Virus record (IMG/VR): IMGVR_UViG_3300008113_000059
Coordinates: 1-64,000 of that record
Length of the DNA stretch: 64,000 nt
DNA from: a virus
Direction: 5' to 3' (one strand)
The notes beneath the pieces are model-generated. The model had not been told where the DNA came from. It saw only the letters and a program-made list of their open reading frames with translations, and made no database searches. Shown here one piece after another: positions 1 to 28,922 of the stretch (the stretch's first letter is position 1; each line of letters begins with the position of its first letter). Position numbers and translations under genes: made by a program.

Positions 1-3000
1 ACTGGAACAAGTGGAACTTCAGGATCTAGTGGTTCATCAGGTTCATCAGGTTCATCAGGATCTACTGGAACAAGTGGCTCTTCAGGATCTAGTGGTTCAT
101 CAGGTTCATCAGGAACATCGGGCTCAAGTGGTTCTTCGGGAACTAGCGGAAGTTCAGGTACATCAGGAGCTTCGGCTGCGGTTGGTTGTTGGAATTGGGG
201 TTCTAATCCACCAGCTTCAGGAGAATTTAGAGGGAATGGTTCATTTTTAGGTCCAAGTACAAATACTCTATATGTTAGTGACATTACAAATGCTTCTGTT
301 GATTTAGATACATATTTGAATACTATTACTGTAGGTTCAGTTATTAAGATAAGGCTTGGGGCAGACACGTTTTTATTTCAAGTAACTTCTAATACGGACT
401 CTGGTACTTACCATACATTTGGAGTGACATATTTATCAGGTGCTGGTATTGGTCCTGCCCCTGGAGCATCTGGATGTTTTGATTTCTATGTAGCTGGTAC
501 TTCAGGAGCATCGGGTTCAAGTGGTTCATCAGGTTCATCAGGTTCTAGTGGAACTTCAGGCTCTTCAGGCTCTTCAGGATCTAGTGGTTCATCAGGATCT
601 ACTGGAACAAGTGGCTCTTCAGGATCTAGTGGTTCATCAGGTTCATCAGGATCTACTGGAACAAGTGGCTCTTCAGGATCTACTGGAACAAGTGGCGTCT
701 GGTTCAAGCGGTAGCTCAGGATCTGCCGGAACAAGCGGGCTTTCCATTACACCTGCTGGAAGATGGAGATGGGAAGTTTCCGCCACTCCTACATCGGGAA
801 GGTTTTATTTTAATAGTGGAAGCATCGGTGGTAATACAGACACGTTATACATTTCAGAAACAACTCTGAGTGGAATTGATTTCCAAGCAATATTAACTCC
901 TAGCATAATTAATAGCACTGTTTTAATAACAGATGCTAGTACGGGATCTCAATATTGGTTTTATACAATTACATCATTAGCTGATAGCGGTACTTATGCT
1001 ACAATAGGACTCACCCTACAAACATCCAATGCTTCCGTGGTTCCCCCTCCTAGTACCAATTATAATTTCTGTTTCTTAGTTGGTGCAAGGGGTGCTGCTG
1101 GTACAAACGGTTCTTCAGGAACAAGTGGAACTTCCGGTTCGAGTGGCTCTTCAGGAACATCAGGATCAAGCGGTTCTTCAGGAACATCAGGATCTACTGG
1201 AACTTCAGGATCTAGTGGTTCATCGGGATCTGCTGGAACAAGTGGAACATCAGGATCTAGCGGTTCATCAGGTTCATCAGGATCTAGCGGTTCATCAGGA
1301 ACCAGAGGTTCATCGGGAACTTCAGGATCTTCAGGATCTAGTGGTTCATCAGGTTCATCAGGATCTGCTGGAACAAGTGGATCTGGATCTGCTGGAACAA
1401 GTGGAACCTCTGTAGCTGTATCGGGTACTACTAACACTGTTGCTAAGTTTACAAGTTCTACAACTATTGGTAACTCAAACATTACTGATACAGGCACTTT
1501 AATTACATTAGGTTCCAATACTACTGTTAATGGTGCATTAGGTGTTGGTACGGGTGCAGCATTATCAGGTTACAATATAAATGCACTTAGAAATTTAACG
1601 GGTAGTTCAATCGTTGCGGGTATACAATCTGCGGGAGATCTTCAATCTGATGTTTTGCTTGAAGCTATGTATTTTAATACAATAGCATCAACACAAGCTG
1701 CTACATTTAATGTTCCAACTATTTCTCATTTTAGAGCTACACAAGGAACATTTGGCGCTAGTTCTACAGTTACAACACAAATAGGATTCCATGCAACTTC
1801 CACTTTAACGGGAGCAACTAATGATTATGGATTCTATGGAAACTTAGCTTCTGGTTCAAATATTTGGAACCTGTATATGAACGGTACTGCTAATAATTAT
1901 TTAGCAGGTTCTTTAGGTATAGGTACAGGTTCACTAACTGATAGAGTTTTAGCTATAGGTAAAACTATTACGGGTGGAACTACAGCTTATGGTGTAATAG
2001 CTGACAGTAATATTGGAAGCGGGGTAACAACAAATGCTATTTATTTTGCAACAAATTCAATATCTACATCAGGTGTTGCACAAACCTCTATAACACATTA
2101 TCTTGCTCAACAACAAACATATTCAGGAACTGTTACAAATCAATATGGATATTTTGTTGATTCAACATTAACAGGAGCAACTAATGATTATGGATTCTAT
2201 GGAAACTTAGCTTCTGCTGCAAATATTTGGAACCTGTATATGGCTGGATCAGCTTCCAATTATTTAAACGGTGTTTTAACTATAGGTACAGCATCACCGA
2301 GTGCTTCAGCTAAAGTACAAATAGATAGTACAACAAGTGGTTTCTTACCACCAAGGATGACTCAGTCCCAAAAGAATGCTATTGCATCTCCTGCAACAGG
2401 ATTAATTATTCATCAAACAGATGGTAGTGCGGGACCTTATTATTATAATGGATCAGTCTGGGTTCAGAATGGATCAGGATCTTCCGGAACAAGTGGATCA
2501 GGATCTTCAGGATCTAGTGGTTCATCAGGATCTTCAGGATCTAGTGGTTCATCAGGAACTAGTGGTTCATCAGGAACTTCAGGATCTACTGGAACAAGTG
2601 GATCTAGCGGTTCATCAGGATCTTCAGGATCTAGTGGTTCATCAGGAACTAGAGGTTCATCAGGAACTTCAGGATCTACTGGAACAAGTGGATCTAGCGG
2701 TTCATCAGGAACAAGCGGTTCATCAGGAACAAGCGGTTCATCAGGACCTAATGGTACCAATGGATCTTCCGGATCTTCCGGATTAAGTGGACTCGACGGA
2801 ACGGGAGGGTCTTCGGGAACTTCAGGATCAGGAACTGCCGGAGCTGATGGATCAAATTCTGGAAGATGGAGATGGCTCAATACATCATCCCCATCAGATC
2901 CGGGAGCTACTCGGTTCAGTTCAAACAGCTCTAATATATCGACTACAACATCGATAAGTATACATAATCAAAGTATTGCTACCAGTTACACTTCTTGGAT

Positions 3001-3570
3001 AAGCGCTTTAAATTCTGCTGCAGCTTTAGGAACATCCCTTTATTTGCAGGTATATCAAATTGGTAATACATCCATCTTAGGAACATGGACAGTAGCAAGT
3101 GCAACTACTTCGGGTGGTTATGGAATAGATCTGACTCTTAATGCAGCTTTAGTTGCTAACGGATCTTGGAGTGCATCTGATTATGCTATTTCCTGGGTGT
3201 TTAACGGAAGAATTGGATCTTCGGGAACTTCAGGAGCTTCAGGAGCTTCAGGATCAAATGGTACATCAGGATCTTCAGGATTGAGCGGAGCTAATGGTAC
3301 TTCAGGATCTTCTGGAACTTCAGGATCAAATGGTTCATCAGGAACTACGGGATCAAGTGGTTCATCCGGAACTAATGGATCAAGTGGTTCATCAGGAACT
3401 AGAGGTTCATCCGGAACTTCGGGATCAAATGGTTCATCAGGATCAAGTGGTTCATCAGGAACTAGAGGTTCATCAGGAACAAGTGGTTCATCAGGAACTA
3501 GAGGTTCATCCGGAACTTCGGGATCCTCTGGATCTTCTGGAACTGGTGGAGCTGCGGGAGCTGCGGGGGG
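1..3570 (+). repeat. Five blocks of low-complexity Gly-X-Y coding repeats
   Basis: Degenerate 9- and 18-bp units (for example GGATCTAGTGGTTCATCA) encode GSS/GTS triplets in blocks at about 1-180, 490-711, 1087-1411, 2470-2850 and 3217-3570. Near-identical units occur within and between blocks, so recombination, length variation and misassembly are all plausible here. These runs also create long out-of-frame open readings (VHQVHQ or DEPLDP type) that are not genes. Confidence 0.9.
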
Positions 3571-4504
3571 TGTAAGATATAACTTCTCAACATCAACAGT
3601 AGATGCCGATCCAGGAGCAGGAGTGGTTGCGTATAATAATGCAACAATCGCTTCTGTTACTCAACTTTTCTTTGATATTTTTGACCAGCTTGGAGGTTCA
3701 AGAACAGCATGGTTTGACACTTGGGATGATAGCACAACTCCAGGAAATAAGGGAACCGTTACTCTTTACAGTAGAGATACTGGAACAGTAGTTAATGTAT
3801 TCACAGTTACAGGTACAGTTACGGTTGCCGCGGGTTATTATAAAATACCTGTTTCATTTGTAAGTGGTACTCTCGGAACAAACGGCGCACAACTTTCTGT
3901 TCAATTCAACAGATCGGGTGATATAGGTAGTTCAGGTTCTTCGGGAACTTCAGGATTCGCTGTCAGCGCTAGCACTACTAATTCCACATTCTATCCGGTT
4001 TTCGTTTTAGGAACTGGTGTACAAACACCTTTTATTAGAACAACTGCTAATGCTTTTCAATTTAATGCTAGTACAGGTGTTTTAACAACCGATACATTAC
4101 AGAGTGATAACGATACTTACGTAAAGAGATCGCTGGGTGTTGGTATAACCCCATCAGCTACAATGGGAAGAATAGATGCATCAGGAGATATTATTGCATT
4201 CTCAACATCTGATATTAGATTGAAGCAGGATGTTAGCCCGATAGAGAACAGTTTAGAAAAACTTTCAACCATCTCTGGAGTTAATTATAAATGGAACCCT
4301 GAATTTAATAGCATCCATGGATATAAAGATAAACAAGACGTTGGAGTTATTGCACAGGAGATATTGGGTATTTTACCTGAAGCGGTTAGACTAAATGAAA
4401 CTGGATATTACTCCGTTAGATATGAAAGAATAATTCCACTGCTGATCGAAGCAATTAAGGAGCAGCAGAAACAAATAGATGAATTAAAATCCAAATTAAA
4501 ATAA
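1..4504 (+). CDS. Giant Ser/Thr/Gly-repeat tail fibre with C-terminal S74 chaperone (5' partial, frameshifted)
   Basis: The gene enters from the left edge. Long Gly-X-Y runs built from GSS/GTS triplets alternate with beta-rich modules that start with a GRWRW-type motif (about 181-490, 760-1080, 2860-3215). A duplicated segment with the shared motif ATNDYGFYGNLAS lies at about 1560-2300. The last ~98 residues, beginning at the Ser codon 4208 (SDIRLKQD, then GVIAQEI and a coiled coil), match the intramolecular chaperone/peptidase S74 domain, which trimerises fibres and then cuts itself off just before this Ser. Bases 1-714 are read in frame 1 and stop at 712-714. The rest is read in frame 2; deleting G697 restores one continuous Gly-X-Y reading. 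The product is probably a receptor-binding fibre. Whether the frameshift is real is open. Confidence 0.85.
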
Positions 4505-4505
4505 A

Positions 4506-5036
4506 ATGGGATTTGTAGTAAACAAGGAAATAACAGCAGATAACGGGGGTAATCTTTCCAGTTTTTATGTGAGAATAGAAAATTATGTTGTTAATAAAAT
4601 CACTGGATTTATGGCTGTTAGTATAGGACATTATTTAGATAAAGAAGCTGCAGCTCAACCATACATTGAGGATGGGATAGACTGTAGCGGTAGGATTGGT
4701 TTCACCCTTTCATACGATACTGTTATTAATTTACAATTACCAACCGTAAGAAGATATCCGCTTACTGAAACAGTGACTGTTCCAATACAGATTAAAATTT
4801 CTGACTGGTCTCATGAGTTGATAGAATATATTGATTTCGACGAGAATGGTAACGAGGTTATAAAAGAAAGACGGGAGTGGACTCAAATCGTTAGCTACGA
4901 AATGGAGGATCAGGAGAGAACAAGAATAAATATAGATCTTGTGAATGGTGATTTATACCAATATGCTTATAATAAATTAATAGAGGAATATAAGAATATA
5001 TTCGGAAGTGCAAACATTATAAACGAAACCATCTAG
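4506..5036 (+). CDS. Hypothetical protein, probably virion-associated
   Basis: 176 residues starting one base after the fibre stop, so it is translationally linked to it. The sequence is predicted mixed beta, with no signal peptide, no transmembrane segment and no motif I recognise. A charged stretch lies near residues 115-130 (FDENGNEVIKERREW). Position directly behind the fibre suggests a fibre partner, assembly factor or small baseplate protein, by inference only. Confidence 0.7.
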   Translation: MGFVVNKEITADNGGNLSSFYVRIENYVVNKITGFMAVSIGHYLDKEAAAQPYIEDGIDCSGRIGFTLSYDTVINLQLPTVRRYPLTETVTVPIQIKISDWSHELIEYIDFDENGNEVIKERREWTQIVSYEMEDQERTRINIDLVNGDLYQYAYNKLIEEYKNIFGSANIINETI

Positions 5037-5038
5037 AA

Positions 5039-5503
5039 ATGCCAGTATTATTAATTGGACCCTCGGATTTTAATATCGCTACAGAATTTACACAGTTAAT
5101 AGGAGTTAGCTCAACTAATGCTTCTTTTAAGAATATACTTGAGGATACCGATCCCCAGATTGGGGGTCTTAGTAATTTTTCGATGAATTATTATAATGGT
5201 GTTAATACTTATTTATTTAATTTAGCAATACAATCTTCTAACGGAACACGAGGTTATGTCGAGGTTATTTATCCCTGGTACGAAGCCTCGACGGGAACCA
5301 CAATTATCGGTAATAATAAACAGGCATTTGAAGCTTATAGTGGCAGTATAGATATAAGAGCAACAGGAATTTACCCGTATAGTTTTTCGTATTGGTATGA
5401 ATCCAGCTCCGCTACTTTTTACTATACCTCAACTTTAGCTTTTGCCTATAGTGATCCCGTAGTTCAGGATCCTTTTGCTTTATTTACTGCTTATTTTGCA
5501 TAA
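5039..5503 (+). CDS. Hypothetical small virion-type protein
   Basis: 154 residues, two bases after the preceding stop. It is rich in Ser, Thr, Tyr and aromatic residues with alternating beta-type patterns and no charged catalytic-looking motif. This resembles head or tail decoration or adhesin domains, but no family is recognised. It closes the fibre gene group before the modification island. Confidence 0.65.
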   Translation: MPVLLIGPSDFNIATEFTQLIGVSSTNASFKNILEDTDPQIGGLSNFSMNYYNGVNTYLFNLAIQSSNGTRGYVEVIYPWYEASTGTTIIGNNKQAFEAYSGSIDIRATGIYPYSFSYWYESSSATFYYTSTLAFAYSDPVVQDPFALFTAYFA

Positions 5504-5541: not shown

Positions 5542-6429
5542 ATGGAAACCCTATGGGTATTAGAGAATGTAAAAAAGGATCTTTGTTTTTATAATAGATT
5601 ACAGATTTGGTTGCTTGCAGCTTCTGTGTCTTTATGGAGAAAATATCATGTGAGTCATAAGACTGTTTTTTATTGCGATAATCTCACCTTTGATTACCTT
5701 GAAAATTTCGGTATTTTTCATTTGTGGCATGAGATTAGATCGCTTTCATATCCGGAGAAAATTAACAGGGAGATATTTTGGTCATCTCCAAAAACTAAAA
5801 TTATATCCGAAACTAAAATCCCCATACTTCTGGTTGATCATGATTTTTTAATCTTCCGTAATATCGATGAGATTCTTACAGATAAGCTCATATACAGCTA
5901 TGAAGAGAGATCAGATAATTGGTATCCTTCTGCGAATGACATTTATAATAGCAGATTAACAACCCCAATTACCAGAATCAATGATTTAGCAGCTAATGTG
6001 AGCTTTTTTTATTTACCTGATCCCGCATTTGCCAATAAATACGGTAGGCGGGTTCTTAAAAATCATGAGGAGTTTACATCCATGGATTCACCATATATCA
6101 CGACGAATCATATGATATTATCGGAGCAGTTAATGTTAAAGCAATGGTTGTGTTTGGAGAGCATACCACATCAATGCCTATCTAAAAACCTTTGGGATTG
6201 TAAAAAATCCGATTTTTATAATGATCTAACAGAATGCGGAATTTGGAATCTTAAAGAAACCCGGAGATCTTATAAACATTATGGAGTTGAGGAGGGAAGA
6301 ATTAGAGAACACCAGCCAGGCTACAATTATCAGGAAACAATTGATTTTTTAAAAAGATGTGTTACTGCGGGCGGGCTTATAGATGTTAAAGAATTGGAGA
6401 ATAGGATTAATACTGCATTAAACAAATGA
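5542..6429 (+). CDS. Putative GT-A-like glycosyltransferase 1
   Basis: 295 residues. A hydrophobic strand runs into an acidic DxD-type motif (PILLVDHDFLIF, about residues 94-105), the typical metal/nucleotide-sugar site of GT-A enzymes. The N-terminal part (WLLAASVSLWRK and FYCDN) fits the usual nucleotide-binding half. The next three genes carry the same hhhDxDhhI signature (LDQD, LDWD, IDWD), so they look like divergent relatives. The stop overlaps the next start (ATGA). Substrate unknown; nearby fibre genes suggest glycosylation of fibres, although host surface glycan modification is possible. Confidence 0.65.
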   Translation: METLWVLENVKKDLCFYNRLQIWLLAASVSLWRKYHVSHKTVFYCDNLTFDYLENFGIFHLWHEIRSLSYPEKINREIFWSSPKTKIISETKIPILLVDHDFLIFRNIDEILTDKLIYSYEERSDNWYPSANDIYNSRLTTPITRINDLAANVSFFYLPDPAFANKYGRRVLKNHEEFTSMDSPYITTNHMILSEQLMLKQWLCLESIPHQCLSKNLWDCKKSDFYNDLTECGIWNLKETRRSYKHYGVEEGRIREHQPGYNYQETIDFLKRCVTAGGLIDVKELENRINTALNK

Positions 6430-7415
6430 GAGCAATACACGTAAATTGGACCAAGCCATTTTTTCATAGGGATCGTTTAAGGGGACATGGATTTAACACA
6501 ACCAGAGAATTAAAATCTGAAACCTATGATCAACCTGACTATCAGATACTATACACCATGCTTTCAGCTATCCACTGGAAACGATTGAACGGACCTATTA
6601 AACTTTACACGGATTCTATTGGACTAGCATTTTATCAGCAATTCAGGATACCTGAACTTTATGATGATATTAATATTAATTTTTTAAACGGGTATTCAAG
6701 AACAGATGTCGATCCTGCACATTTTTGGACTAGCGGAAAAATAAAATGTTTAGCCAACCAGACATCACCATTTGTTTTTCTTGATCAGGATATGATAATT
6801 AGAAGTAAGCTTCCTGATGATATATTAAAATCGGATTTAACGGTTACTCACTGGGAAATACCTAGAGGATATTATTATTTTAGTGAGGATGATTGGAAAA
6901 AGGATATTTCACATATAGATTTTCCTCAAGGTTATCAGTGTTTTGATTGGTCTCCGAACACATCATTTCTAGTTTTTAATAATCTAAAGATATTAAGAGA
7001 GTATCACGATTGGCATAGAAAGTTGGTTGATACTAATGGCTCGGATACTCCCGAATGGTTTTGGCTTTTAACTGACCAAGGAATACTTGGACATATCATT
7101 AGACAGGGAGATTATAACACCAATACTTTAACAGATAAGATATATTTGGCCGATAGTAATTATGGTAGCGAATCTACCAGGTATAAGGGTCAGTCCGAAA
7201 ACTGGTATTATCCCATGAACCCTGACTATACCAAGGAGAATATAAGTTGGGAGCATGTCTGGATAGATAAAATTCATTATGGATGGCTTCCTGATTATAA
7301 AGAAAAACAAACGCAAAGATTTTTTGAAGAACTCATATTTTTGGGATATTCGGAATATCTAAGACATTCGAGATTTGTAAAATATTGGAATGAATACGGG
7401 AGTAAAAATAGTTAG
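6426..7415 (+). CDS. Putative GT-A-like glycosyltransferase 2
   Basis: 329 residues, overlapping the previous gene by four bases. The core motif is FVFLDQDMIIRSKLP (about residues 117-131), with the Asp-x-Asp in the same structural place as its neighbours. The N-terminal MRAIHVNWTKPF and the segment LYTDSIGLAFY resemble uncharacterised Bacteroidota proteins of the GT-A fold. The 3' end overlaps the next gene by 26 bases. No signal peptide or membrane anchor, so the product should act in the cytoplasm on nucleotide-sugar donors. Confidence 0.6.
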   Translation: MRAIHVNWTKPFFHRDRLRGHGFNTTRELKSETYDQPDYQILYTMLSAIHWKRLNGPIKLYTDSIGLAFYQQFRIPELYDDININFLNGYSRTDVDPAHFWTSGKIKCLANQTSPFVFLDQDMIIRSKLPDDILKSDLTVTHWEIPRGYYYFSEDDWKKDISHIDFPQGYQCFDWSPNTSFLVFNNLKILREYHDWHRKLVDTNGSDTPEWFWLLTDQGILGHIIRQGDYNTNTLTDKIYLADSNYGSESTRYKGQSENWYYPMNPDYTKENISWEHVWIDKIHYGWLPDYKEKQTQRFFEELIFLGYSEYLRHSRFVKYWNEYGSKNS

Positions 7416-8157
7416 AGCATACTGGGGGGAAAGCGATAAACTCAAGAGAGAGATCCCACCGATTCCGATTTATCCAAATCAGATAGTTTTTGTTTGGGGT
7501 TCTGCAAACGAGTCTTTCTTAAGATCTAGAGGATTCGATACTTTTTTGATGTCTGATGATATTCCGGAGTTTTATCGTTCGTATAATGGACAATTCTATC
7601 GTAAATTATTAGCACTGGATATGGCATTGAGTATGTTTGATGAGGTGATTCTTCTGGATTGGGATTGCTATATATTAAGAGAATTTGATAACGATTTCTA
7701 CGAATTTCTTAGTGAAAAACCAATTCAATGTCCATTGTACGGTCAATATGAAAAAATAGAGGAGTCATGGAGGGAAGTATTACAGCCAGAGAATCCTAAT
7801 AAGGAGGGATGGTATTTAATATGCAACGATACCTTTCCCAAATACACATGGAAACTTGGAACAACATTAGTAAGTCCAAATTTCTGTTTTGTTTATAGCA
7901 GAGACCGGTCCTTGGGTAAGAATCTGATTGACATAGCAAATAAGCATAAATTATCCGGATGCATAGAGGAGCACGCAATGTATTTGTATGCTAATTGTTC
8001 TCTTGATGATTATATAGGGAGATATCATCCTAAATTTTTATACGGGGTTTCCGAGGATGAATCGGGGAGTGACTTTTTAGTAAATAAGTCACAGAAAATA
8101 GTAAATGAATATCTGGAGAATTCTATTAAAATGACACATTATCTTAAACACATATAA
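7390..8157 (+). CDS. Putative glycosyltransferase 3 (paralogue of next gene)
   Basis: 255 residues. It begins VKIVRAYWGESDKLKREIPP and carries VILLDWDCYILREFD at about residues 94-108, a DxD-type donor site. It is clearly paralogous to the next gene, which has IKIIRAYWGDSEKLKNEIPP and FLRSRGF in the same places. Start and stop overlap both neighbours, indicating one operon. Family membership beyond the GT-A-like motif is uncertain; the sugar and acceptor are unknown. Confidence 0.6.
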   Translation: MNTGVKIVRAYWGESDKLKREIPPIPIYPNQIVFVWGSANESFLRSRGFDTFLMSDDIPEFYRSYNGQFYRKLLALDMALSMFDEVILLDWDCYILREFDNDFYEFLSEKPIQCPLYGQYEKIEESWREVLQPENPNKEGWYLICNDTFPKYTWKLGTTLVSPNFCFVYSRDRSLGKNLIDIANKHKLSGCIEEHAMYLYANCSLDDYIGRYHPKFLYGVSEDESGSDFLVNKSQKIVNEYLENSIKMTHYLKHI

Positions 8158-8921
8158 TGAAATCTGATATAAAAATAATTAGAGCATATTGGGGTGATTC
8201 GGAGAAGCTCAAAAATGAAATCCCTCCCCTGCCTATATATGATAATCAGATTGTATACGTGTGGGGTGAGAATAACGATAAATTTTTAAGATCTAGAGGA
8301 TTTAAAACAAGAATAGTAACCGATGATGATCCTTGTAAAATAGACCATAAAAATTCATTGATCAGAAAACTTATAGCTATAAAAATGGCATTGGATGAAT
8401 TCCATGAGATAATGTTCATAGATTGGGATTGCTACATATTGAGGGAGCTGGATGACTCATTTTATAAGTACATCTCAGATAAACCCACTCAAATACCTCT
8501 GTATGCACACCTTAGTAATCCTATCGATGGTATAGAAGAGTTTTACGTTAACTGTGAGCCCGAGCATGTTGAATTTAAGAATGAAGCGAATAGATATATT
8601 CTGAAATATAGCTGGAAATCTGATGATATGTGCATTCTACCCAACTTTGGATTTTTTTATAGCAGGGAAATCTCGATAGGAAGAGAGCTTCTCAGAATAG
8701 CTGTAGAGAATGACCTTAAAGGATGTGCTGATGAGGCAGCTATGTTCATATATGCTAATTGTGATCTGGAGGAGTATATAAAGAGATATCACCCAATTTT
8801 CGTTAACGGTGTTTCTGATATTATGACTTCGACAAATTTTAAAATATCAGAAATACAGAAAAGATTTAATAGTAGAATTAAAGATGTTTTAAATATGGAT
8901 CCATATCTGGAACACATGTAA
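8157..8921 (+). CDS. Putative glycosyltransferase 4 (tandem duplicate)
   Basis: 254 residues. Its ATG shares one base with the stop of the previous gene. It has the same N-terminal block, the same FLRSRGF, and IMFIDWDCYILRELD as the DxD segment. A conserved KRYHP block lies near the C-terminus in both copies. The pair looks like a local duplication followed by divergence in the middle third, which could mean different acceptor specificity. Confidence 0.6.
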   Translation: MKSDIKIIRAYWGDSEKLKNEIPPLPIYDNQIVYVWGENNDKFLRSRGFKTRIVTDDDPCKIDHKNSLIRKLIAIKMALDEFHEIMFIDWDCYILRELDDSFYKYISDKPTQIPLYAHLSNPIDGIEEFYVNCEPEHVEFKNEANRYILKYSWKSDDMCILPNFGFFYSREISIGRELLRIAVENDLKGCADEAAMFIYANCDLEEYIKRYHPIFVNGVSDIMTSTNFKISEIQKRFNSRIKDVLNMDPYLEHM

Positions 8922-8935
8922 GTATAAGTAAATTT

Positions 8936-9967
8936 ATGAAAGCATATTGCAGTTTACCTTTTGATAGAATAAAAATAGATTCCGACGGATCATTCCAATC
9001 TTGTTGTCATCAAACAACCTACTATGGCAACATTTTAACTGATGGTATAACGATAGATGAGGCTTTCAAGGGGAAAACATTGGTTTCAGTAAAGAACTCC
9101 GTAATGAGCTCTAAAATGCATCCTGGCTGCAACAACACTAAATGTCCGTTACACTTCACATCATTAGAAAGAAATGTTGATGTTACCCTGTCGAAATATC
9201 CTAAACAAATTGAACTTTCACTGCCATCTTCGTGGTGTAACATAGGTGGTTTGAACCCAACCCCTGACACTGCATGTATAATGTGTCCCAGATCTAGCGA
9301 AAGCTACATCACAAATTTTATTAATCTACCCGATAATACTAATTTGTTACTGGATATAATAAAACCCGCTATACCGTATCTGGAAACATTTACACTCTTA
9401 GGAATAGCTGAACCTTTTTATAAGGGAAGATTGTTTGATGTTTTTGATAGAATAGAATTTAAAAAATACAAGGACACAATATTATTTTGGACTTTTTGTA
9501 ATGGATCTTTATTTGGCGAAAAATACCAGGACATGTTTATAGATGAATACACCAATAAATCATGTATAGGATTTTCTATTGATGCTGCAACACCAGAAAC
9601 ATACATAAAGATAAGAAGACTCGATTATTATGCAACTATACAAAAGAATCTTGAGAGATATTTTAATAAAGTAAATAATATGAGCTATAAACGCGATTGG
9701 TCGTTTACAGCATATAATATTAACATGTTGAATCTCCATGAAATGGAGGATATGCTTAGATTTGGAAACAGTATAGGTGCAAATAAAGTACAATACACTC
9801 TAACATACATAAGCGATCCTGGAATGAAAATAAATAGGAATTTATTATGTAATTCCAAAAATTGGAATCTATTTTGGGAAAAACAACAGAGGATAGAGCA
9901 ATTAGCTTCTGAGTTAAATCAAAAGGTTGAATTTTATGTGCCATTCCACGGTGGGTTTTTAAAATAG
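8936..9967 (+). CDS. Radical SAM/SPASM-like protein
   Basis: 343 residues. The N-terminus looks like a SPASM/twitch-type iron-sulphur segment: CSLPFDRIKIDSDGSFQSCC, then GNI, an EAF-type helix and a distal CNNTKC (about residues 5-75). It is followed by WCNI... and CIMCPRSS (about 100-120), which resembles the radical SAM cysteine motif followed by PR, although C-x12-C-x2-C spacing is unusual. Radical SAM/SPASM enzymes modify peptides or sugars. Placed among glycosyltransferases and an oxygenase, it may modify a fibre or a sugar. Function unproven; the order (SPASM-like before the core) is odd. Confidence 0.55.
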   Translation: MKAYCSLPFDRIKIDSDGSFQSCCHQTTYYGNILTDGITIDEAFKGKTLVSVKNSVMSSKMHPGCNNTKCPLHFTSLERNVDVTLSKYPKQIELSLPSSWCNIGGLNPTPDTACIMCPRSSESYITNFINLPDNTNLLLDIIKPAIPYLETFTLLGIAEPFYKGRLFDVFDRIEFKKYKDTILFWTFCNGSLFGEKYQDMFIDEYTNKSCIGFSIDAATPETYIKIRRLDYYATIQKNLERYFNKVNNMSYKRDWSFTAYNINMLNLHEMEDMLRFGNSIGANKVQYTLTYISDPGMKINRNLLCNSKNWNLFWEKQQRIEQLASELNQKVEFYVPFHGGFLK

Positions 9968-9980
9968 TAAATGCAATATC

Positions 9981-10688
9981 ATGAACTTTAAACAGCCATT
10001 AATTCCAACCCCTGACGAATATGTTTTCCAACTTGCACCTATTCCTGTGTATCAAAGGATATTTGATGATGCCTTAACTGATAAAGTGTATAAATTAGGT
10101 CTGGAAGCATTAAACGATACACAAAAAAGAATGGGACAGGAATTACCGTTACAATATGATTCGGAACGGCAATCTACCTATGAGGTAAATTATACTAGGG
10201 AGGATCAATGGGTCGAGGACCATGAATTTCCTCCGATAGGAAGCCGTTTTTGGACTCCTCCTAATGATTTTCTTAATTATGATAATGAGCTGGTAAAAAT
10301 TATAAAAAGAAGAATAGAGGGAGGATTTTTACAATTATTAAAATCTATACAAATAGAGACTAAAAGCAAACCCGTCATAACGGAAAGTTGGCTACAGTAC
10401 TATGACCCATTTTCGGGTAGGGGTCACAATGCTCATAACCATTGTCGCTGGCATCACGGCGAAACGAAACAAATAATGTTTTCCGGAGGTTATTATTTAT
10501 CCGACGGAGATCCCATAGCGGATCATCCTTACAGCGGGGTATTTTCTTTTCATGTCCGCGGGATGAAGTATTACATTAGACCTAAAAAGGGAATGCTTTT
10601 AATATGGCCATATGATATAATTCATTCGGTGGAGCCTTTTTATGGTAGTAAAGAAAGAGCAGTTATAAACTTCAATATACAGATATAG
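9981..10688 (+). CDS. 2OG-Fe(II) oxygenase (prolyl-hydroxylase-like fold)
   Basis: 235 residues. The core reads W137 ... HNAHNHCRWHHG (149-160), SGGYYLSDGD (168-177), LLIWPYDIIHSVEP (206-219) and ERAVINFN (225-232). This is the pattern of phage-borne 2OG-Fe(II) oxygenases: proximal His ligands around 152/154, distal His215, and Arg226 for 2-oxoglutarate. Phage members of this group are common and their substrates mostly unknown. Here the neighbours are collagen-like fibres and glycosyltransferases, so hydroxylation of fibre residues is an attractive but unproven role. The N-terminal ~30 residues (QLAPIPVYQRIF) are typical of these proteins. Confidence 0.8.
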   Translation: MNFKQPLIPTPDEYVFQLAPIPVYQRIFDDALTDKVYKLGLEALNDTQKRMGQELPLQYDSERQSTYEVNYTREDQWVEDHEFPPIGSRFWTPPNDFLNYDNELVKIIKRRIEGGFLQLLKSIQIETKSKPVITESWLQYYDPFSGRGHNAHNHCRWHHGETKQIMFSGGYYLSDGDPIADHPYSGVFSFHVRGMKYYIRPKKGMLLIWPYDIIHSVEPFYGSKERAVINFNIQI

Positions 10689-10719
10689 GTACCCTAAAAT
10701 TAATTAATTTTTTGAAACT

Positions 10720-10733
10720 ATTATAAACAAAAC
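10720..10733 (+). promoter_or_regulatory. ATTATAAACAAAAC motif upstream of 10758
   Basis: Second copy of the ATTATAAACnAAA element, 24 nt before the ATG at 10758 and preceded by a T-run (10708-10713). Possible promoter for the second half of the modification island. Confidence 0.3.
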
Positions 10734-10757
10734 AGCTAAAAATAGTAAATTTTAAAC

Positions 10758-11030
10758 ATGAGCGAACAAATTAAATTACCAGAAGAATTGCTTTTAGAGA
10801 TCCAAGCTTTAAAAGACGAGTTAACAGAGAACGTTGTTAGAATCGGAAGATTGAATGTCCAAAAATCATTCTACGAGAAGGATTTGAAAATGATGAATAC
10901 TGAATTGGATTCTTTGTATGATATGGCTGAAGCTATTTCAAAAAAAGAGCATGCCTTAGAAGCTAAAGTTGTTAATGAATATGGTAGTGGCAAACTAGAT
11001 TTCGAATCTGGGGTTTTTACAAAATCTTAA
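10758..11030 (+). CDS. Small coiled-coil protein
   Basis: 90 residues, nearly all predicted helix with heptad-like leucines (LPEELLLEIQALKDEL) and a short C-terminal tail ending GSGKLDFESGVFTKS. No enzymatic motif. Such small coiled-coil proteins with a 'G.G.LD.ESGVF' tail are familiar from T4-like phages of Bacteroidota and other marine hosts, but I cannot name a role. Confidence 0.7.
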   Translation: MSEQIKLPEELLLEIQALKDELTENVVRIGRLNVQKSFYEKDLKMMNTELDSLYDMAEAISKKEHALEAKVVNEYGSGKLDFESGVFTKS

Positions 11031-11063
11031 ATGTCATCCTCTGAATCAACATAAAAGGGGGTG

Positions 11064-12011
11064 ATGAAAAAAATAATTTATATCACTCCCCATCTTTCCA
11101 CCGGAGGATTGCCTCAATATCTGTATAAAAAGATAGAGTCTTTCAATAAGGTGGCTGATGTTTATTGCGTGGAATACAGTTTTCATGGTGATGCATATGT
11201 TGTTCAGAGAAATAAAATAGCTGAACTTCTTGGAGATAGATTTATACCTTTATATGACAATAAGAACAAAATTATCGAATTATTGGAGGATATAAAACCT
11301 GATGTGATTCATTTCGAGGAGCTTCCTGAATCCTTCGTTAGTTCCGAATTATTAAATAGGATCTATAGCAATGATAGGAAATATTTTATATGTGAAACAT
11401 GCCACGGTTCAAATATACCAATAAGTGTTAAGCTATACAGACCTGATAAATTCATTATGGTTTCCGAGTGGATAGACAATAAGTTTAAACCACTGGGGGT
11501 ACCTTCCGATATACTGGAGTACCCTATTGAGGATCTAACACCTCTTAAGAAACATCATATGAATTTGCTTGGCTTATCGCCGGATTTCAAACATGTGGTA
11601 AATATTGGATTATTTACCTCCGGCAAGAATCAGAAAGAGGTTGTTGAGTACGCAAAGAAAACTGAGCATCTCCCAATAAGGTATCATTTCATTGGTAATA
11701 CCGCTGATAATTTTAAGGATTATTGGGAACCTATTCTGACTGATCTTCCTTCTAATTGCAGGATATGGGGTGAAAGAAATGATGTTGATTCATTCTATCA
11801 AGCTGCGGATCTTTTTCTATTTACCTCTATTTTTGAGCTAAATCCTCTGTCGATAAAGGAAGCTCTTTCTTGGAAGCTTCCTTGTATGTTTAGAAAACTT
11901 GATACTTACATGAGCACGTATGATGGATTTCCTAATGTTCATTATCTCAACGATGACAGGGAATCTAATATTTCGGAAATGCTAAAAATACTTGGTGTAG
12001 ATGGAAATTAA
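11064..12011 (+). CDS. GT-B glycosyltransferase (GT4/GT1-like)
   Basis: About 315 residues. MKKIIYITPHLSTGGLPQYL is the classical N-terminus of GT4 enzymes (Gly-Gly loop). The C-terminal half has VVNIGLFTSGKNQKEV, a donor-domain strand (RYHFIGN), a CRIWGERNDV-type segment and SIFELNPLSIKEAL, the E-x7-E nucleotide-sugar region. A GTG lies one codon upstream at 11061, but the ATG at 11064 is preferred. A purine-rich AAAAGGGG precedes it. It overlaps the heptosyltransferase gene by 11 bases, so both are probably made together. Acceptor unknown. Confidence 0.85.
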   Translation: MKKIIYITPHLSTGGLPQYLYKKIESFNKVADVYCVEYSFHGDAYVVQRNKIAELLGDRFIPLYDNKNKIIELLEDIKPDVIHFEELPESFVSSELLNRIYSNDRKYFICETCHGSNIPISVKLYRPDKFIMVSEWIDNKFKPLGVPSDILEYPIEDLTPLKKHHMNLLGLSPDFKHVVNIGLFTSGKNQKEVVEYAKKTEHLPIRYHFIGNTADNFKDYWEPILTDLPSNCRIWGERNDVDSFYQAADLFLFTSIFELNPLSIKEALSWKLPCMFRKLDTYMSTYDGFPNVHYLNDDRESNISEMLKILGVDGN

Positions 12012-13191
12012 AGAGCAGTCAATTAGCATATACTCCGATCTGGTTAAATACGACGAGATCCACTTTGAAGAGAATCTAAAAATTAGAGCTCATTTATCGT
12101 TTGATTATAATCCTAAAATAGAAATATCCGGTCCCTCTGGGATACCGGGAATCCCCAATTCATTTAATACATTCATAAGAGACAGCGGAGATCTTCTATA
12201 CACATCAACCATACACACCGTAATGTTTTCATCAGGACTCCGACGGTGGGTTTTTGATTGCGACATGGAAGTCAGAGACGAATCAAATAATATAATCTCA
12301 TCATTTAACCTTTTTGATAAATTTAAAACTGGTAAAGTTTTGGTTTCTATTGACAGCTCAGCATTAGGTGATACATTAGCTTGGCTCCCATATATAGAAG
12401 AATTTAGAAAAAAATATGCTGTCAACAACCTTATTGTAACGACATTTTGGAATCAGTTATTTGAGGGTCGATATGCCGATATAAAATTCAAACATCCTGG
12501 ATACAGGGAGGAAGAAATTGATGCAATTATTGGTGTTGGTTGGTACGAGGAGACTGATGCTAATGTTCATAAAAATGATCCCCGTTCTATACCAATGCAG
12601 CAGGTTGCATCTGATATATTGGGTGTAGAGTATGCTGGTGAAATTAAACCTATAATTAACAAGACCCTACTAAGTAGACCTACTGATAAGAAATACGTTT
12701 GTATTGCAACAGAATCCACAGCGGGTGCAAAATATTGGCATTATCCTGGAGGATGGCAAAGATTGGTTGATTTACTTAAATCAGTGGGTTACGATGTGAT
12801 TGTTATTCACAAACAACCAACTGATCTAAAGGGAGTCATAGATAGAACGGGGGATCTTCCGATATCGGAAAGAATAAGTGATCTACTGCAATGTGAATTT
12901 TTCATTGGACTTGGATCTGGTATGTCTTGGTTATCGTGGTCCTTGGAAGTTCCAACGGTCATGATATCCGGATTCAGTCTACCCACAATGGAGTTTTTAG
13001 ATAAAACTCTAAGAATAATAAATAAGGATGTTTGTCATGGATGTTTCTCAAACACATCATATAAATTTGACAGAGGCGATTGGTGGTGGTGTCCTGTTCA
13101 TAAAGGAACAGATCGCTACTTCGAATGCACAAGAACAATAAAGCCGGAAGATGTCTTCATAAAGATATTAGACTGGATTCCCACTCTTTAA
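12001..13191 (+). CDS. Autotransporter-type O-heptosyltransferase (GT9/BAHT-like)
   Basis: 396 residues. The N-terminal ~110 residues form a beta-rich domain. Then come VLVSIDSSALGDTLAWLPYI and a GT9 donor half (VCIATESTAGAKYWHYPGGW, CEFFIGLGSGMSWLSW). The C-terminus has CHGC, 15 residues, WWWCP, and FECT: four cysteines as in the iron-finger of bacterial autotransporter heptosyltransferases (TibC/AAH group), including SNTSYKFDRGDWWW. Those enzymes move heptose from ADP-heptose to Ser on beta-helical passenger repeats. Phage fibres nearby are Ser/Thr-rich and one is a predicted beta-helix. The family call is strong; the fibre as substrate is inference. Confidence 0.82.
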   Translation: MEIKEQSISIYSDLVKYDEIHFEENLKIRAHLSFDYNPKIEISGPSGIPGIPNSFNTFIRDSGDLLYTSTIHTVMFSSGLRRWVFDCDMEVRDESNNIISSFNLFDKFKTGKVLVSIDSSALGDTLAWLPYIEEFRKKYAVNNLIVTTFWNQLFEGRYADIKFKHPGYREEEIDAIIGVGWYEETDANVHKNDPRSIPMQQVASDILGVEYAGEIKPIINKTLLSRPTDKKYVCIATESTAGAKYWHYPGGWQRLVDLLKSVGYDVIVIHKQPTDLKGVIDRTGDLPISERISDLLQCEFFIGLGSGMSWLSWSLEVPTVMISGFSLPTMEFLDKTLRIINKDVCHGCFSNTSYKFDRGDWWWCPVHKGTDRYFECTRTIKPEDVFIKILDWIPTL

Positions 13192-13297
13192 AAATTAACT
13201 CTACCCGATTCAGTAACAACCTCCTCTGGATAGGTTATTCTTGTGCCTTGTTTATGAGATTCTGCTATACCTTTGAATTTCGCAATTTATTTATTTA

Positions 13298-13306
13298 GAT
13301 ATATAA
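13298..13306 (+). promoter_or_regulatory. Candidate late promoter box GATATATAA
   Basis: GATATATAA in the gap after the heptosyltransferase, 20 nt before the ATG at 13327. It is the same box found before several structural genes (19174, 24348, 35061, 37427, 53086, 56733, 60505). Confidence 0.55.
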
Positions 13307-13326
13307 TCTCACTTAAAAAATATCAA

Positions 13327-13662
13327 ATGTCAGAAATAAGAGAATATTTTACATGGGAGGGAAACACGTTAATATTCGGTGACAGAGATGGATACAAATG
13401 GGAAACAACCTATAAAATAGTCCAGGACGCTGCATCAGCCGTTAATCTGGCCAGTGGATATGGATTACATCCACTGGAAAACATCGAGAGGAAACTTCCG
13501 GGGAAAGAATTTAAACAGTTTATAAGGATCGTTTGTGAAGTTAACGGAAAGATATATACAGAGACTAGACACAAAGAGATAGCTAGAAAAGTCACTGTTG
13601 GTGATATAGAGAAAACCTTTGATAAATATAGCATAAAAATCGAGGTAAAAGATAATAAATAA
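13327..13662 (+). CDS. Small hypothetical protein
   Basis: 111 residues starting MSEIREYFTWEG. The frame stays open upstream to 13273, but that would place the GATATATAA box inside the gene, so the ATG at 13327 is chosen. Mixed alpha/beta, no membrane segment and no known motif. The stop is followed after three bases by the next gene. Confidence 0.7.
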   Translation: MSEIREYFTWEGNTLIFGDRDGYKWETTYKIVQDAASAVNLASGYGLHPLENIERKLPGKEFKQFIRIVCEVNGKIYTETRHKEIARKVTVGDIEKTFDKYSIKIEVKDNK

Positions 13663-13665
13663 GAA

Positions 13666-14382
13666 ATGATAACAAGATATTCAGATTTCGTTTTCAAACC
13701 AAAGCAACCATTGGCACCTTCTAATGGACCCATTTTGGAAAAAAAAGAGGTTAAAAAAGATGATAAACTATTGAAAGAAAATTTAATCGATGATGTTATC
13801 TCATCAAAGATGAAATTACCTATCCCTGTTGACATCAAAACAAATTATGGGAATGAGGAAGAGGAGGAGTTTGACGACGAAGAATATTACGGGGAACCAG
13901 TAGAAAAAACAATAACGGACTTTATAGACCCAGCTTATATAAAATCTACACAGCCAACTTTTATTTCTGAACCCGAAGAAGTTGTATCCGAGCCTATAAT
14001 CACGGAGCCACAAATTCCTATGGATCCGCTTGCTTATAAAATATTCAGAGACAAAGCGGAATCTTTCGAATGCAAGGTTATGATAGAGGGAAGCGATGTT
14101 AAAAACACTGCGGTTAGACTTATACTAGAATCCGAAGAATGGAACATATTCTTTAAAGGTTCCATAAGCGGAGGAGTTTGTAGGATACCTCTTAAAAAAA
14201 TATCAATATTATCACCGGGACTTAAAGGTGTAATTAAATTAGAGGTTGTTGTAGATGGGGAGATTTTCTATCCTTGGTACGAAACATTCCAAGTGCAAAA
14301 CAATAAGAATGTAAAGGTGGAAATATTATCACAAAAGCAAAATAACCAGGCACAATCAGGCACTAGAGTTAGAATTGCTTAA
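13666..14382 (+). CDS. Acidic-linker protein with C-terminal Ig-like domain
   Basis: 238 residues. The N-terminus MITRYSDFVFKPKQP is followed by a Lys-rich stretch, then a long acidic linker (NEEEEEFDDEEYYGEP, about 64-80) and a Pro/Glu-rich segment. The final ~110 residues look like a beta-sandwich (ECKVMIEGSD..., LKGVIKLEVVVDGEIFYPWY). T4-like phages carry related virion or scaffold proteins with this disordered-then-Ig layout. Exact role unknown; position before fibre genes suggests a virion component. Confidence 0.6.
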   Translation: MITRYSDFVFKPKQPLAPSNGPILEKKEVKKDDKLLKENLIDDVISSKMKLPIPVDIKTNYGNEEEEEFDDEEYYGEPVEKTITDFIDPAYIKSTQPTFISEPEEVVSEPIITEPQIPMDPLAYKIFRDKAESFECKVMIEGSDVKNTAVRLILESEEWNIFFKGSISGGVCRIPLKKISILSPGLKGVIKLEVVVDGEIFYPWYETFQVQNNKNVKVEILSQKQNNQAQSGTRVRIA

Positions 14383-14401
14383 ACGCAAAAAAATTTAATA
14401 A

Positions 14402-15540
14402 GTGTCAAATCCGTTAAATCTTACAGGCCAATTTATAGCCGACACGTATGGTAGATTATTGCAGACACAAGACAATAATGTCTATGATGGGGAGGGCAAT
14501 TATTTATATACAATAGGTGGAACAGGGGGAGGATCAGAAATTCCTGGTCCTACTGGTCCTACTGGTCCTACCGGACCAAGCGGTGCTATAGGAGCTATTG
14601 GTGTAACTGGAAATACTGGAGCAACAGGATCACAAGGTCCAACAGGATCACAAGGTCCAACAGGATCACAAGGTCCAACAGGATCACAAGGTCCAACAGG
14701 ATCACAAGGTATAATGGAGCAACCGGAACTATTGGAGCTACTGGACCAACTGGAACTAATGGGGCTATAGGAGCTACAGGCCCAACTGGAGCTAATGGTA
14801 ATGATGGTATTAGTGTTTCATATTATAGATATAAAGCAGGAACAAGCTCTCAAACTCCTCCCCCTGCGACGAATCAAATTATATGGGATAATGCTACCCA
14901 AATAAGCTCTACCATACTATACATTTCCCATTTAACGACGGATAATATAGATATAGATGTTTTTCTAGGTTTAATTACAACGGAGGATAATTTAATCATC
15001 CAGGACCAGAACAATTCTAGTAACTACCAAAAATGGTTGGTGAGTTCATCACCCACAATTATACCTAATAATTATGTTTCTGTACCAGTTACTTATGTGG
15101 AAGGTGGTTATTCATTTTCTGCTGGACAGGATATAATTCTAGTACCCCTATCTATTGGGATACAAGGTCCAGCAGGACCCACAGGAAACAATGGTGCTAA
15201 TGGAGCAACTGGTCCAACGGGAAATAATGGAGCAACCGGACCCACGGGATCCTCTGGTGAATATTCAATAACAACCACAACAACCACTTATAATATAGTT
15301 GATACCAGTGGGACTTTTATCTTAAAATGCGATAGCACGGGGGGTGAATTTCAAGTCAATTTACCAACAGCAATAGGAAATACAGCAACAATAGTCGTTA
15401 AAAAAACTGCTGGTACAGCAGCTGTTACAGTTAATGGATTTTCAACAGAAACTATTGACGATGGGCTTACCGCAGTAATAAATAACATATATGAATCAAT
15501 TACATTAGTTTCCGATAATTCAAACTGGTGGGTAATATAA
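14402..15540 (+). CDS. Collagen-like (Gly-Pro-Thr) fibre protein, frameshifted
   Basis: Starts at GTG 14402 with [20 protein letters not shown], a typical virion-fibre N-terminus. Then come Gly-X-Y triplets rich in GPT, SQG and ATG (14546-14810). Frame 2 runs off the collagen pattern after 14710 and stops at 14770, while frame 1 continues it cleanly from AAT 14713 ([14 protein letters not shown]) to 15540. One base is missing at 14711-14712, or a -1 shift occurs. After the repeat follows the same beta-module as in the first fibre ([18 protein letters not shown]), a second short collagen block and a C-terminal beta domain. Gly-Pro-Thr repeats recall Bacillus BclA, where Thr is glycosylated. 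Confidence 0.8.
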
Positions 15541-15554
15541 AATAAAGATTAAAA

Positions 15555-16001
15555 ATGGCATACAATCCTAATAATCCAAACGGACAAACAACTGCAGCAA
15601 ACTCAGCGCCAGTCGTTATTGCATCGGATCAGACTGCAGTTAATGCCTCCCTACAAGAGATTGCAACTGGAGGTGCATCAGTATTTCACCTTGTTTCTTT
15701 ATCAGGTACAAATCCTACAAATATAAAAAATGGACCTGGTAAGATAACCGGATGGTTCATTTATAATAACACAGGAGTTGTTAAAAAAGTTGCATTTCAT
15801 AATAATGCAGGTACACCAACAGCAGGAACAGGCGTTTATTTTTCAATCGTAATTCCTCCCCTATCAGCAGCTAATTGTTCCTTTCCCGCAGGAATAAATT
15901 TTTCAACTGGTATTGCAATAACTACAACAAGTGGTTTAGCAGATTCCGATACATCTATCGTTAATGCATCGGATCTTAGTATAAATATATTCTTTAAATA
16001 A
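15555..16001 (+). CDS. Small virion/decoration-like protein
   Basis: 148 residues. The N-terminus NNPNGQTTAANSAPVVIASD is a sequence style often seen at the start of phage head-fibre or decoration proteins. The remainder is a Ser/Thr/Ala-rich beta domain (KITGWFIYNNTGVVKKVAFH). It lies 14 bases after the collagen-like fibre stop and one base before the next gene's ATG, so it belongs to the fibre operon. Function inferred from style and context only. Confidence 0.6.
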   Translation: MAYNPNNPNGQTTAANSAPVVIASDQTAVNASLQEIATGGASVFHLVSLSGTNPTNIKNGPGKITGWFIYNNTGVVKKVAFHNNAGTPTAGTGVYFSIVIPPLSAANCSFPAGINFSTGIAITTTSGLADSDTSIVNASDLSINIFFK

Positions 16002-16002
16002 T

Positions 16003-16341
16003 ATGGCAAACATTCAATCAACAAACAAATTTACGTATCCATTGCAATGGAACATCGAAAAACTCAATGTAACGGTTAATACATTTCCTCTTTTCCCTGA
16101 AACTGTTGAAGTATTCTGGGAATTAATAGGTGGTGATTTTTCAAAAGAAGGTACTCTGATTATTCCTCAAGAAATAGTCTCTCAATGGGGAACTAACGAT
16201 TCGATATTGGAGGATTATGTTATCGAACAATTAAACTTAACTCGATCAATAACTGAAGAAACTCTACCAACCGAAGAAACTACACCGACGGAAGAAACTC
16301 CACCGACAGAAGAAACTCCACCGACAGAACCTATAGTATAG
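16003..16341 (+). CDS. Small protein with C-terminal PTEET repeats
   Basis: 112 residues. The first ~85 form a compact beta/alpha domain (ETVEVFWELIGGDFSKEGTLII) reminiscent of small phage tail or fibre proteins. The end is five tandem six-residue units of the PTEET type, encoded by 18-bp repeats at about 16255-16335. The Thr-rich tail is a possible glycan acceptor or spacer. The next gene begins two bases after the stop. Confidence 0.6.
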   Translation: MANIQSTNKFTYPLQWNIEKLNVTVNTFPLFPETVEVFWELIGGDFSKEGTLIIPQEIVSQWGTNDSILEDYVIEQLNLTRSITEETLPTEETTPTEETPPTEETPPTEPIV

Positions 16342-16342
16342 G

Positions 16343-27777: not shown

Positions 27778-28332
27778 ATGGCAGGATTATCACATTTTCA
27801 AAATTCACTATCAGGAATAAACAAGTTTGAACCGGTTTATTTAAACCAGTTTGAGGTTACTATTATACCTCCTGCTGCTGTTGCTGGCGGTGAGATATTA
27901 CTACAGCACGTTAATAAAGTTTCCGGCCTTTCTTTGGATAAAAACCCTAGTGTTATAGCACAAAAGTATAAATTTGCTAAAAGAAACTATGCTGGTGCTA
28001 AACCTGAGAACACATATATGGACGTAAGTTTAAGTTTTAGTGTCAATCTTAATGACGTTAATTCAATGTATGTCTTTAAAACACTAAGACAATGGTCTGA
28101 TCTTATCTATAACCCATTAACGGGTGCAATGGGACTTAAAAACGATTATACGGGTACTATCGTAATATCAATCTTTAACAAACAAGGTGATGTATACAGA
28201 AGAATAACTTGTAGAGATTGTTTTCCTACTAAACCTATAACCGCTATGAATTTAAGCTACATGTCAACGGATCTATATAAAATTGATGATATGTCTTGGG
28301 CGGTTGATTACTGGGAAGATCTATTCTTATAA
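27778..28332 (+). CDS. gp19: Tail tube protein 1 (gp19-like)
   Basis: 184 residues (T4 gp19 is 163). Shared blocks with the next gene are EPVYLNQFEV near the start, YKFAKRNYAGAKP, RQWSDLIYNPLTGAMG in the centre and a VDYWEDLFL end. The central block is the hallmark of T4-type tube subunits. It stacks as hexamers forming the inner tail tube. Position directly behind the sheath is canonical. Confidence 0.92.
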   Translation: MAGLSHFQNSLSGINKFEPVYLNQFEVTIIPPAAVAGGEILLQHVNKVSGLSLDKNPSVIAQKYKFAKRNYAGAKPENTYMDVSLSFSVNLNDVNSMYVFKTLRQWSDLIYNPLTGAMGLKNDYTGTIVISIFNKQGDVYRRITCRDCFPTKPITAMNLSYMSTDLYKIDDMSWAVDYWEDLFL

Positions 28333-28346
28333 AATAAAGAACAAAA

Positions 28347-28922
28347 ATGGCAGGATTACCACATTTTACAAACTCTAAAGCAGCGATAAACTACTATGAA
28401 CCGGTTTATTTGAACCAGTTCGAGGTGCTTATAAATCCACCATCGGGTATTGTTGATTCAGCTACCACATTTAAGGGTGAGAGTATACTAGCACAACAAG
28501 TTAAAGCTATAACTGGATTGGCAGTAGATATTGCTCCTGCTCAGACAGTTAATCAGCAATATAAATTTGCTACCAGAAGATATGCTGGAGGTGAGCCTTC
28601 TCAGAGTGATATGACACTTTCTATGGAATTTGAGGTTAACTTAAATGACGCTAATTCTATGTCTGTCTATAAAATTCTTAGACAGTGGTCCGATTTAATC
28701 TACAACCCACTTACTGGAGCGATGGGTATAAAATCTGACTATGTTGGATCTATGTCTATATCCATATTTAATAAAAGAGGTGATGTCTTTAGAAGAATAA
28801 GAATACCTTCTTGCTTCTTGAGTGAGCCTATAAATTCAATGGAACTTGATTATGAAACTCCGGCTATATACAGCATAAATGCTAGTTGGGTTTGTGATTA
28901 CTGGGAAGATCTATTCCTATAA
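28347..28922 (+). CDS. gp19: Tail tube protein 2 (gp19-like paralogue)
   Basis: 191 residues and clearly a paralogue of the preceding tube protein: EPVYLNQFEVLINPP, RQWSDLIYNPLTGAMGIKSD and CDYWEDLFL. It carries a small insert near residue 35-45 (GIVDSATTFKGES). Duplicated tube subunits could build the tube and a terminator or hub-adjacent ring, respectively. Its stop is followed by a strong terminator, so sheath and tubes form one transcription block. Confidence 0.9.
   Translation: MAGLPHFTNSKAAINYYEPVYLNQFEVLINPPSGIVDSATTFKGESILAQQVKAITGLAVDIAPAQTVNQQYKFATRRYAGGEPSQSDMTLSMEFEVNLNDANSMSVYKILRQWSDLIYNPLTGAMGIKSDYVGSMSISIFNKRGDVFRRIRIPSCFLSEPINSMELDYETPAIYSINASWVCDYWEDLFL

Follow-up and report, generated by a model that had tools for sequence, protein, structure and literature searches.

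The IMG/VR virus record IMGVR_UViG_3300008113_000059 is a 91.8-kb contig, of which the first 64 kb (64,000 nucleotides) constitute the window analyzed here, and it belongs to a T4-like myovirus with a terminase at 22478, a sheath protein at 24385, portal-like proteins at 41583 and 43201 and a major head protein at 58741. Downstream of a collagen-like fibre gene, positions 5542-13191 hold nine genes on the + strand, several of them overlapping by a few bases and arranged as in an operon, which encode predicted glycosyltransferases, an oxygenase and a protein O-heptosyltransferase of the BAHT family. An earlier note on this DNA had described them as a single island by which the phage modifies its own fibres, perhaps with heptose. 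The open reading frames (ORFs) lie where that note had placed them, co-oriented and partly overlapping, and family or structure matches upheld the glycosyltransferase, oxygenase and heptosyltransferase identities, which confirms the observation; their relatives resolve the island into two separable cassettes. The fibre gene and the island comprise the following features:

1-4504, + strand: collagen-like fibre gene (Gly-Ser-Ser/Gly-Thr-Ser) with a C-terminal S74 chaperone domain (PF01391, E=3e-39; PF13884, E=5e-14)
5542-6429, + strand: predicted GT-A-type glycosyltransferase of the same family as 6426-7415, with whose relatives it clusters; DxD motif
6426-7415, + strand: DUF6734 glycosyltransferase, predicted to be GT-A-type (PF20508, 51 bits, cut-off 27); DxD motif
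7390-8157, + strand: small GT-A glycosyltransferase (AlphaFold2 and Foldseek); D-W-D motif
8157-8921, + strand: small GT-A glycosyltransferase, a 45%-identical paralogue of 7390-8157 (family comparison)
8936-9967, + strand: divergent radical-SAM/SPASM-like protein (NF033640, 50 bits, cut-off 170)
9981-10688, + strand: 2-oxoglutarate (2OG)-Fe(II) oxygenase (PF13759, 27.4 against a cut-off of 27; phrog_81, E=4e-19)
10758-11030, + strand: 90-aa protein, probably a coiled coil (by eye), which accompanies BAHT in 35/56 nonredundant phage loci
11061-12011, + strand: GT-B glycosyltransferase (PF00534, E=2e-8), the partner of BAHT in 47/56 nonredundant loci
12001-13191, + strand: phage BAHT-type protein O-heptosyltransferase (TIGR04414, TibC structure 4RAP, conserved residues)

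The fibre gene extends upstream beyond the contig start, and its collagen-like repeats are rich in Ser and Thr with few Lys or Pro. Its translation shifts reading frame near 700 (660-760), within low-complexity repeats, which is probably an assembly or sequencing indel, a real frameshift being the alternative.

The product of 12001-13191 scored 257.3 bits against TIGR04414, the profile of autotransporter strand-loop-strand (SLS) O-heptosyltransferases (curated equivalog cut-off 200), and matched the TibC structure 4RAP with E=8e-53, while the profile of lipopolysaccharide (LPS) heptosyltransferase I (WaaC, TIGR02193) gave only 10.7 bits against a cut-off of 185. Using TibC-based positions, the protein has equivalents of the catalytic Asp110 and of the donor residues Thr226, Lys230, Arg286 and Trp305. 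The equivalents of D110, K230 and W305 are kept in 56/56 phage homologues and that of Arg286 in 40/56, and the four iron-finger cysteines (Cys339/342/358/370) are present in all 56, the window protein included. According to Yao et al. (PMC4358343), Asp110, Lys230, Arg286, Trp305 and the iron-finger cysteines are required, and BAHTs attach heptose to serines, with bacterial adhesins as the acceptors described so far. Judged by these matches and residues, 12001-13191 encodes a true member of the BAHT family, for which heptose is the predicted donor sugar and, in this phage, a fibre the predicted acceptor.

Viral contigs were searched for relatives with single queries and with profiles, and at least 558 viral stretches encode a BAHT; IMG/VR contigs are partial, and contigs of metagenome-assembled genomes (MAGs) may be misbinned. 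A tree of 87 sequences (23 bacterial, including TibC, 56 from phages and 8 from genome-collection contigs) separated the 23 bacterial sequences from the other 64 with a support of 100/99, the 8 genome-collection contigs falling inside the phage branch. On this tree, phage BAHTs form a separate branch, shared with those 8 contigs, that has a different genomic partner. The SLS acceptor repeat TIGR04415 occurs in 24/30 bacterial BAHT genomes and, by profile search, in none of 21 phage records (p=5e-9). The enzyme belongs to the family, but the BAHT-autotransporter system is not present in these records. Since bacterial adhesins are the known BAHT acceptors (PMC4358343), the enzyme might instead heptosylate host surface proteins such as autotransporters or adhesins and thereby block superinfection or adhesion; however, the branching apart from the autotransporter-linked clade and the lack of the SLS repeat in the phage genomes speak against this, and we regard it as highly improbable.

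The heptose part of the prediction gained support from the conserved BAHT residues and from genes that may supply the donor, beginning with the kinase that the earlier note had pointed out and that profile and structure matches confirmed as HldA-type:

44837-45808, + strand: HldA-type heptose-7-phosphate kinase (TIGR02198, 307 bits, equivalog cut-off 345; HldA structure 4E84, E=9e-49; GAGD motif)

HldA is present in 6/6 own-lineage contigs long enough to show the gene, source contig included. GmhA was found in G004 and G005 (longer own-lineage contigs), G007 and LR756504, and G005 also has a weak HldC-like gene; the absence of GmhA here is uninformative because the source contig ends before the position that it occupies in relatives. 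A GmhA match at G012:114587-114763 is interrupted by two TAG codons, indicating either a decayed gene or TAG read as an amino acid.

The linkage of BAHT to collagen-like fibres was assessed by counting GXY runs ten or more triplets long at loci of 10 kb or more, with loci around another T4-like sheath gene lacking BAHT as controls. Such runs occur at 37/53 phage BAHT loci and 6/35 sheath control loci (p=1.2e-6); in this comparison the control sheath is of another type and from another phage group, and the phage loci are non-independent samples. Ser-rich runs were found at 32/55 BAHT loci and 2/75 controls (p=2e-13). DUF6734 glycosyltransferase loci without BAHT had no Ser-rich run (0/29), and loci with 2OG and glycosyltransferase genes but no BAHT, checked for GXY linkage, revealed no Ser-rich association; the association therefore goes with BAHT. 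At the scale of whole contigs, 16/22 phages with BAHT and 1/9 without it have G[ST][ST] runs (p=0.004), counts corrected for three contigs initially taken as BAHT-negative that carry BAHTs. Of three contigs that were supposed to lack BAHT and had G[ST][ST] runs, two proved to encode the enzyme. In G025, one of the three reclassified contigs, the gene order is an S74-tipped fibre, a GT-B enzyme, BAHT and an HldC-like enzyme. Collagen-like genes also recur near BAHT in unrelated lineages, including the cultured Microcystis phage Mel-JY01, which encodes a BAHT, and the 735-kb phage LR756501. GXY runs occur at only 5/75 BAHT loci of the genome collection, which are mostly bacterial, and at least two of these five (L303 and L309) appear to be phage contigs that were placed in MAGs. 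These two bins, assigned to Flavobacteriales and Bacteroidetes, respectively, resemble phages in having the same gene set and collagen repeats, L309 also carrying T4-like structural genes (by eye).

Besides the limits of the sheath comparison, several findings weigh against heptosylation of the collagen-like fibre by BAHT. Roughly 30% of BAHT loci lack a GXY run within reach, including L069, L081, L088 and L112, which are not cut by a contig end; the other two reclassified contigs have none within the 19 kb read around BAHT, and in G022 and G023 the gene is not beside fibres. The collagen of some BAHT lineages is of a serine-poor GAQ type, and the known BAHT acceptors are beta-helices and not triple helices. 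On the donor side, 8/22 contigs with BAHT have HldA at 300 bits or more, against 0/9 contigs without it, a linkage that is borderline (p=0.07), and the full ADP-heptose pathway is missing in most BAHT phages, so that the many without HldA or GmhA would depend on the host. Many of the run-less loci end 0.5-5 kb upstream of BAHT, where the repeat would lie. Contig ends fall inside Ser-rich collagen-like repeats beside BAHT at the start of the window, at the starts of L006 and L008 and at many other BAHT loci, indicating that metagenome assemblies systematically cut such fibres short.

BAHT and its GT-B partner thus appear, from the conserved neighborhoods, as a first fibre-linked cassette. Another structural gene is also found frequently in its vicinity:

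19201-21690, + strand: 829-aa head-closure-like (neck) protein (phrog_679), whose family is present in 31/56 BAHT loci

In the own-lineage relatives L004-L009 this gene directly follows BAHT, which, together with the Ser-poor collagen of some lineages, would fit a scenario in which BAHT and its partners glycosylate another virion protein, such as one of the baseplate or this 829-aa neighbour, the collagen-like fibre being a mere neighbour. Nevertheless, the 829-aa neighbour is missing from 25/56 loci and collagen-like genes recur across unrelated lineages, as seen in Mel-JY01 and LR756501, and we consider an acceptor other than the fibre improbable.

A second fibre-linked cassette is composed of the DUF6734 transferase, the small GT-A enzyme and the 2OG oxygenase. 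The viral contig scans recovered 31 DUF6734 loci and 76 2OG loci, and the three families co-occur in 20/20 nonredundant loci, mostly without a nearby BAHT; among the 56 nonredundant BAHT loci, the GT-A/2OG set adjoins BAHT only in the source lineage. An S74-tipped fibre lies just upstream of the cassette in 10/20 loci (six by Pfam, four by eye), two others have a LamG-like protein there (by eye), and the rest show other or unidentified large proteins or the contig end. Since both island halves are fibre-linked in other phages, homologous islands that are never linked to fibre genes, the outcome that the earlier note had named as speaking against its proposal, are not what was observed.

The DxD motif is invariant in 33 sequences of the DUF6734 family (5542 and 6426) and, as D-W-D, in 30 sequences of the small GT-A family (7390 and 8157). 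The AlphaFold2 model of the 7390 family reached a pLDDT of 93.8 and its leading PDB matches in Foldseek were almost all GT-A glycosyltransferases with a probability of about 1, so the family has a GT-A fold as modelled; the model of 6426-7415, built from six sequences, was poor (pLDDT 43). The metal and 2OG ligands of the oxygenase (H-x-H, distal H and R) are kept in 7 homologues. Sequence profiles of both GT-A families, the 2OG enzyme and the radical-SAM-like protein gave no convincing solved relative, and the DUF6734, 2OG and radical-SAM-like window proteins had no match in the isolated-phage collection. Radical SAM chemistry, suggested earlier for 8936-9967, is unsupported: a cysteine scan found that the canonical CX3CX2C [4Fe-4S] motif is absent from 9/9 fibre-cassette members of its family. 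The protein itself keeps C101-X12-C114-X2-C117, and CX3CX2C is present in the distant homologue from L032.

Some related islands contain additional genes. A carbamoyltransferase is encoded at L028:6049-7731 (full Pfam match) and, with a similar start, at L032:7147-8718, and a UDP-sugar dehydrogenase at L032:5999-7159, near the 2OG gene, pointing to possible further sugar-type modifications. A heptosyltransferase-like start (by eye, no Pfam match) was noticed in L127:7765-8640 and relatives, a subgroup of GT-cassette islands with a second 2OG family.

The chief rival explanation concerns the host surface: the enzymes could remodel glycans such as LPS or its O-chain, for example excluding other phages, and their proximity to fibres would then reflect a hypervariable host-recognition island. 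This is how the glycosyltransferase and radical SAM genes of host-recognition clusters in pelagimyophages have been read in print (PMC7029224), and the GT-A, DUF6734 and GT-B enzymes could take many substrates, so that generic glycosyltransferases fit it equally well, as do the UDP-sugar dehydrogenase and carbamoyltransferase genes of L028 and L032. On the other hand, BAHT belongs to a family of protein-serine heptosyltransferases with an iron finger and not to the LPS heptosyltransferases, Ser-rich collagen tracks BAHT and not fibre regions generally, and the island genes stand among late structural genes. Remodelling of host glycans is, in our judgement, unlikely.

The window contains a second group of fibre genes after the island, as well as two small genes preceding it:

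13273-19003, + strand: second fibre block, contig-specific and absent from L004-L009
14402-14770 and 15037-15540, + strand: collagen-like ORFs of the second fibre block
16343-19003, + strand: Ser/Thr-rich ORF of the second fibre block, no family match
4506-5036, + strand: 176-aa protein, beside fibres in 14/20 GT-cassette loci
5039-5503, + strand: 154-aa protein, found in 5/20 GT-cassette loci

This second group is real, as the earlier note had indicated, yet specific to the source contig, and since close relatives are without it the block is not a conserved target. The proposed self-modification of fibres therefore retains its linkage to fibres in other phages but loses the beta-helix ORF of this block as a conserved target; 16343-19003 was likewise discarded as a general heptose acceptor, the block being missing in L004-L009 and the SLS repeat being absent. 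Elsewhere, two tandem portal-like genes (phrog_213; 41583-43196 and 43201-44808) represent an unusual duplication, tail-tube-like paralogues are in tandem at 27778-28332 and 28347-28922, and an asparagine-synthase/glutamine amidotransferase-like phage gene (TIGR01536, 207 bits) lies at 66140-67546 of G000 (L002:2140-3546).

In our assessment, it is rather probable that the island is a late-gene, two-cassette module that modifies the virion's own fibres, in which BAHT O-heptosylates serines of the collagen-like fibre. HldA here and, in relatives, GmhA together with an occasional HldC-like enzyme would help to make the precursors of ADP-D-glycero-D-manno-heptose. From this donor BAHT would heptosylate a structural protein on its serine hydroxyls, and the most likely candidate is the S74-tipped tail fibre with its Ser-rich collagen-like repeats. 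The glycan made by BAHT would probably be extended or diversified by the GT-B enzyme, and the second cassette, with its two GT-A families and 2OG oxygenase, may further modify the neighbouring fibre, possibly by hydroxylation followed by glycosylation. We infer this order and division of labour, as well as a purpose in fibre stability, protection or receptor specificity.

Comparison with known systems places the phage enzyme close to TibC and AAH (TIGR04414; PMC4358343), with which it shares a score over the profile cut-off, the catalytic Asp, the donor-binding Lys, Trp, Thr and Arg and the four iron-finger cysteines. It differs from them in being encoded by phage genomes on a separate, well-supported branch, with a GT-B partner, no SLS autotransporter and a linkage to collagen-like fibres, and in having Gly in 44/56 phage sequences, instead of Pro or Ser, at the stereoselectivity position TibC-300. 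Phage-encoded glycosyltransferases acting on structural proteins, as predicted here, have a precedent in mycobacteriophages, where the glycosylated subunits are those of the capsid and tail tube (Freeman et al. 2023, cited after PMC12619734); the present case is set apart by the predicted BAHT chemistry, the enzymes for heptose precursors and the link to fibres. The pelagimyophage clusters likewise have glycosyltransferase and radical SAM genes beside the tail fibres of T4-like phages, although no BAHT was found in the passages of PMC7029224 covered and the interpretation there is host LPS modification; they are therefore a partial precedent for a combination that the earlier note had considered undescribed in phages. 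Mimivirus encodes collagen-like proteins and also an oxygenase and a glycosyltransferase by which they are modified (L230 and a collagen glucosyltransferase; PMC9546862), a combination like the one predicted here, but it is a eukaryotic virus with hydroxylysine-linked sugars, while the present repeats are rich in Ser and Thr and poor in Lys and Pro. No description of phage BAHTs was found in the literature covered, which was open access only.

A broader evolutionary proposal, which we see as evenly balanced, is that tailed phages own an old branch of protein O-heptosyltransferases whose acceptor switched from autotransporter beta-helices to Ser-rich collagen-like fibres, some phages having their own ADP-heptose supply and the source lineage adding a hydroxylase-plus-glycosyltransferase cassette on the same fibre complex. 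The prediction is testable on real virions, because the cultured Microcystis phage Mel-JY01 carries a BAHT. If true, it would assign glycosyltransferase islands hitherto read as host-LPS modification a chemical function that can be tested, give a use for the GmhA and HldA genes found on phage genomes and hint at the reason for the repeated occurrence of very long Ser-rich collagen-like fibres in uncultured phages, and protein heptosylation would extend from bacterial adhesins to virions.

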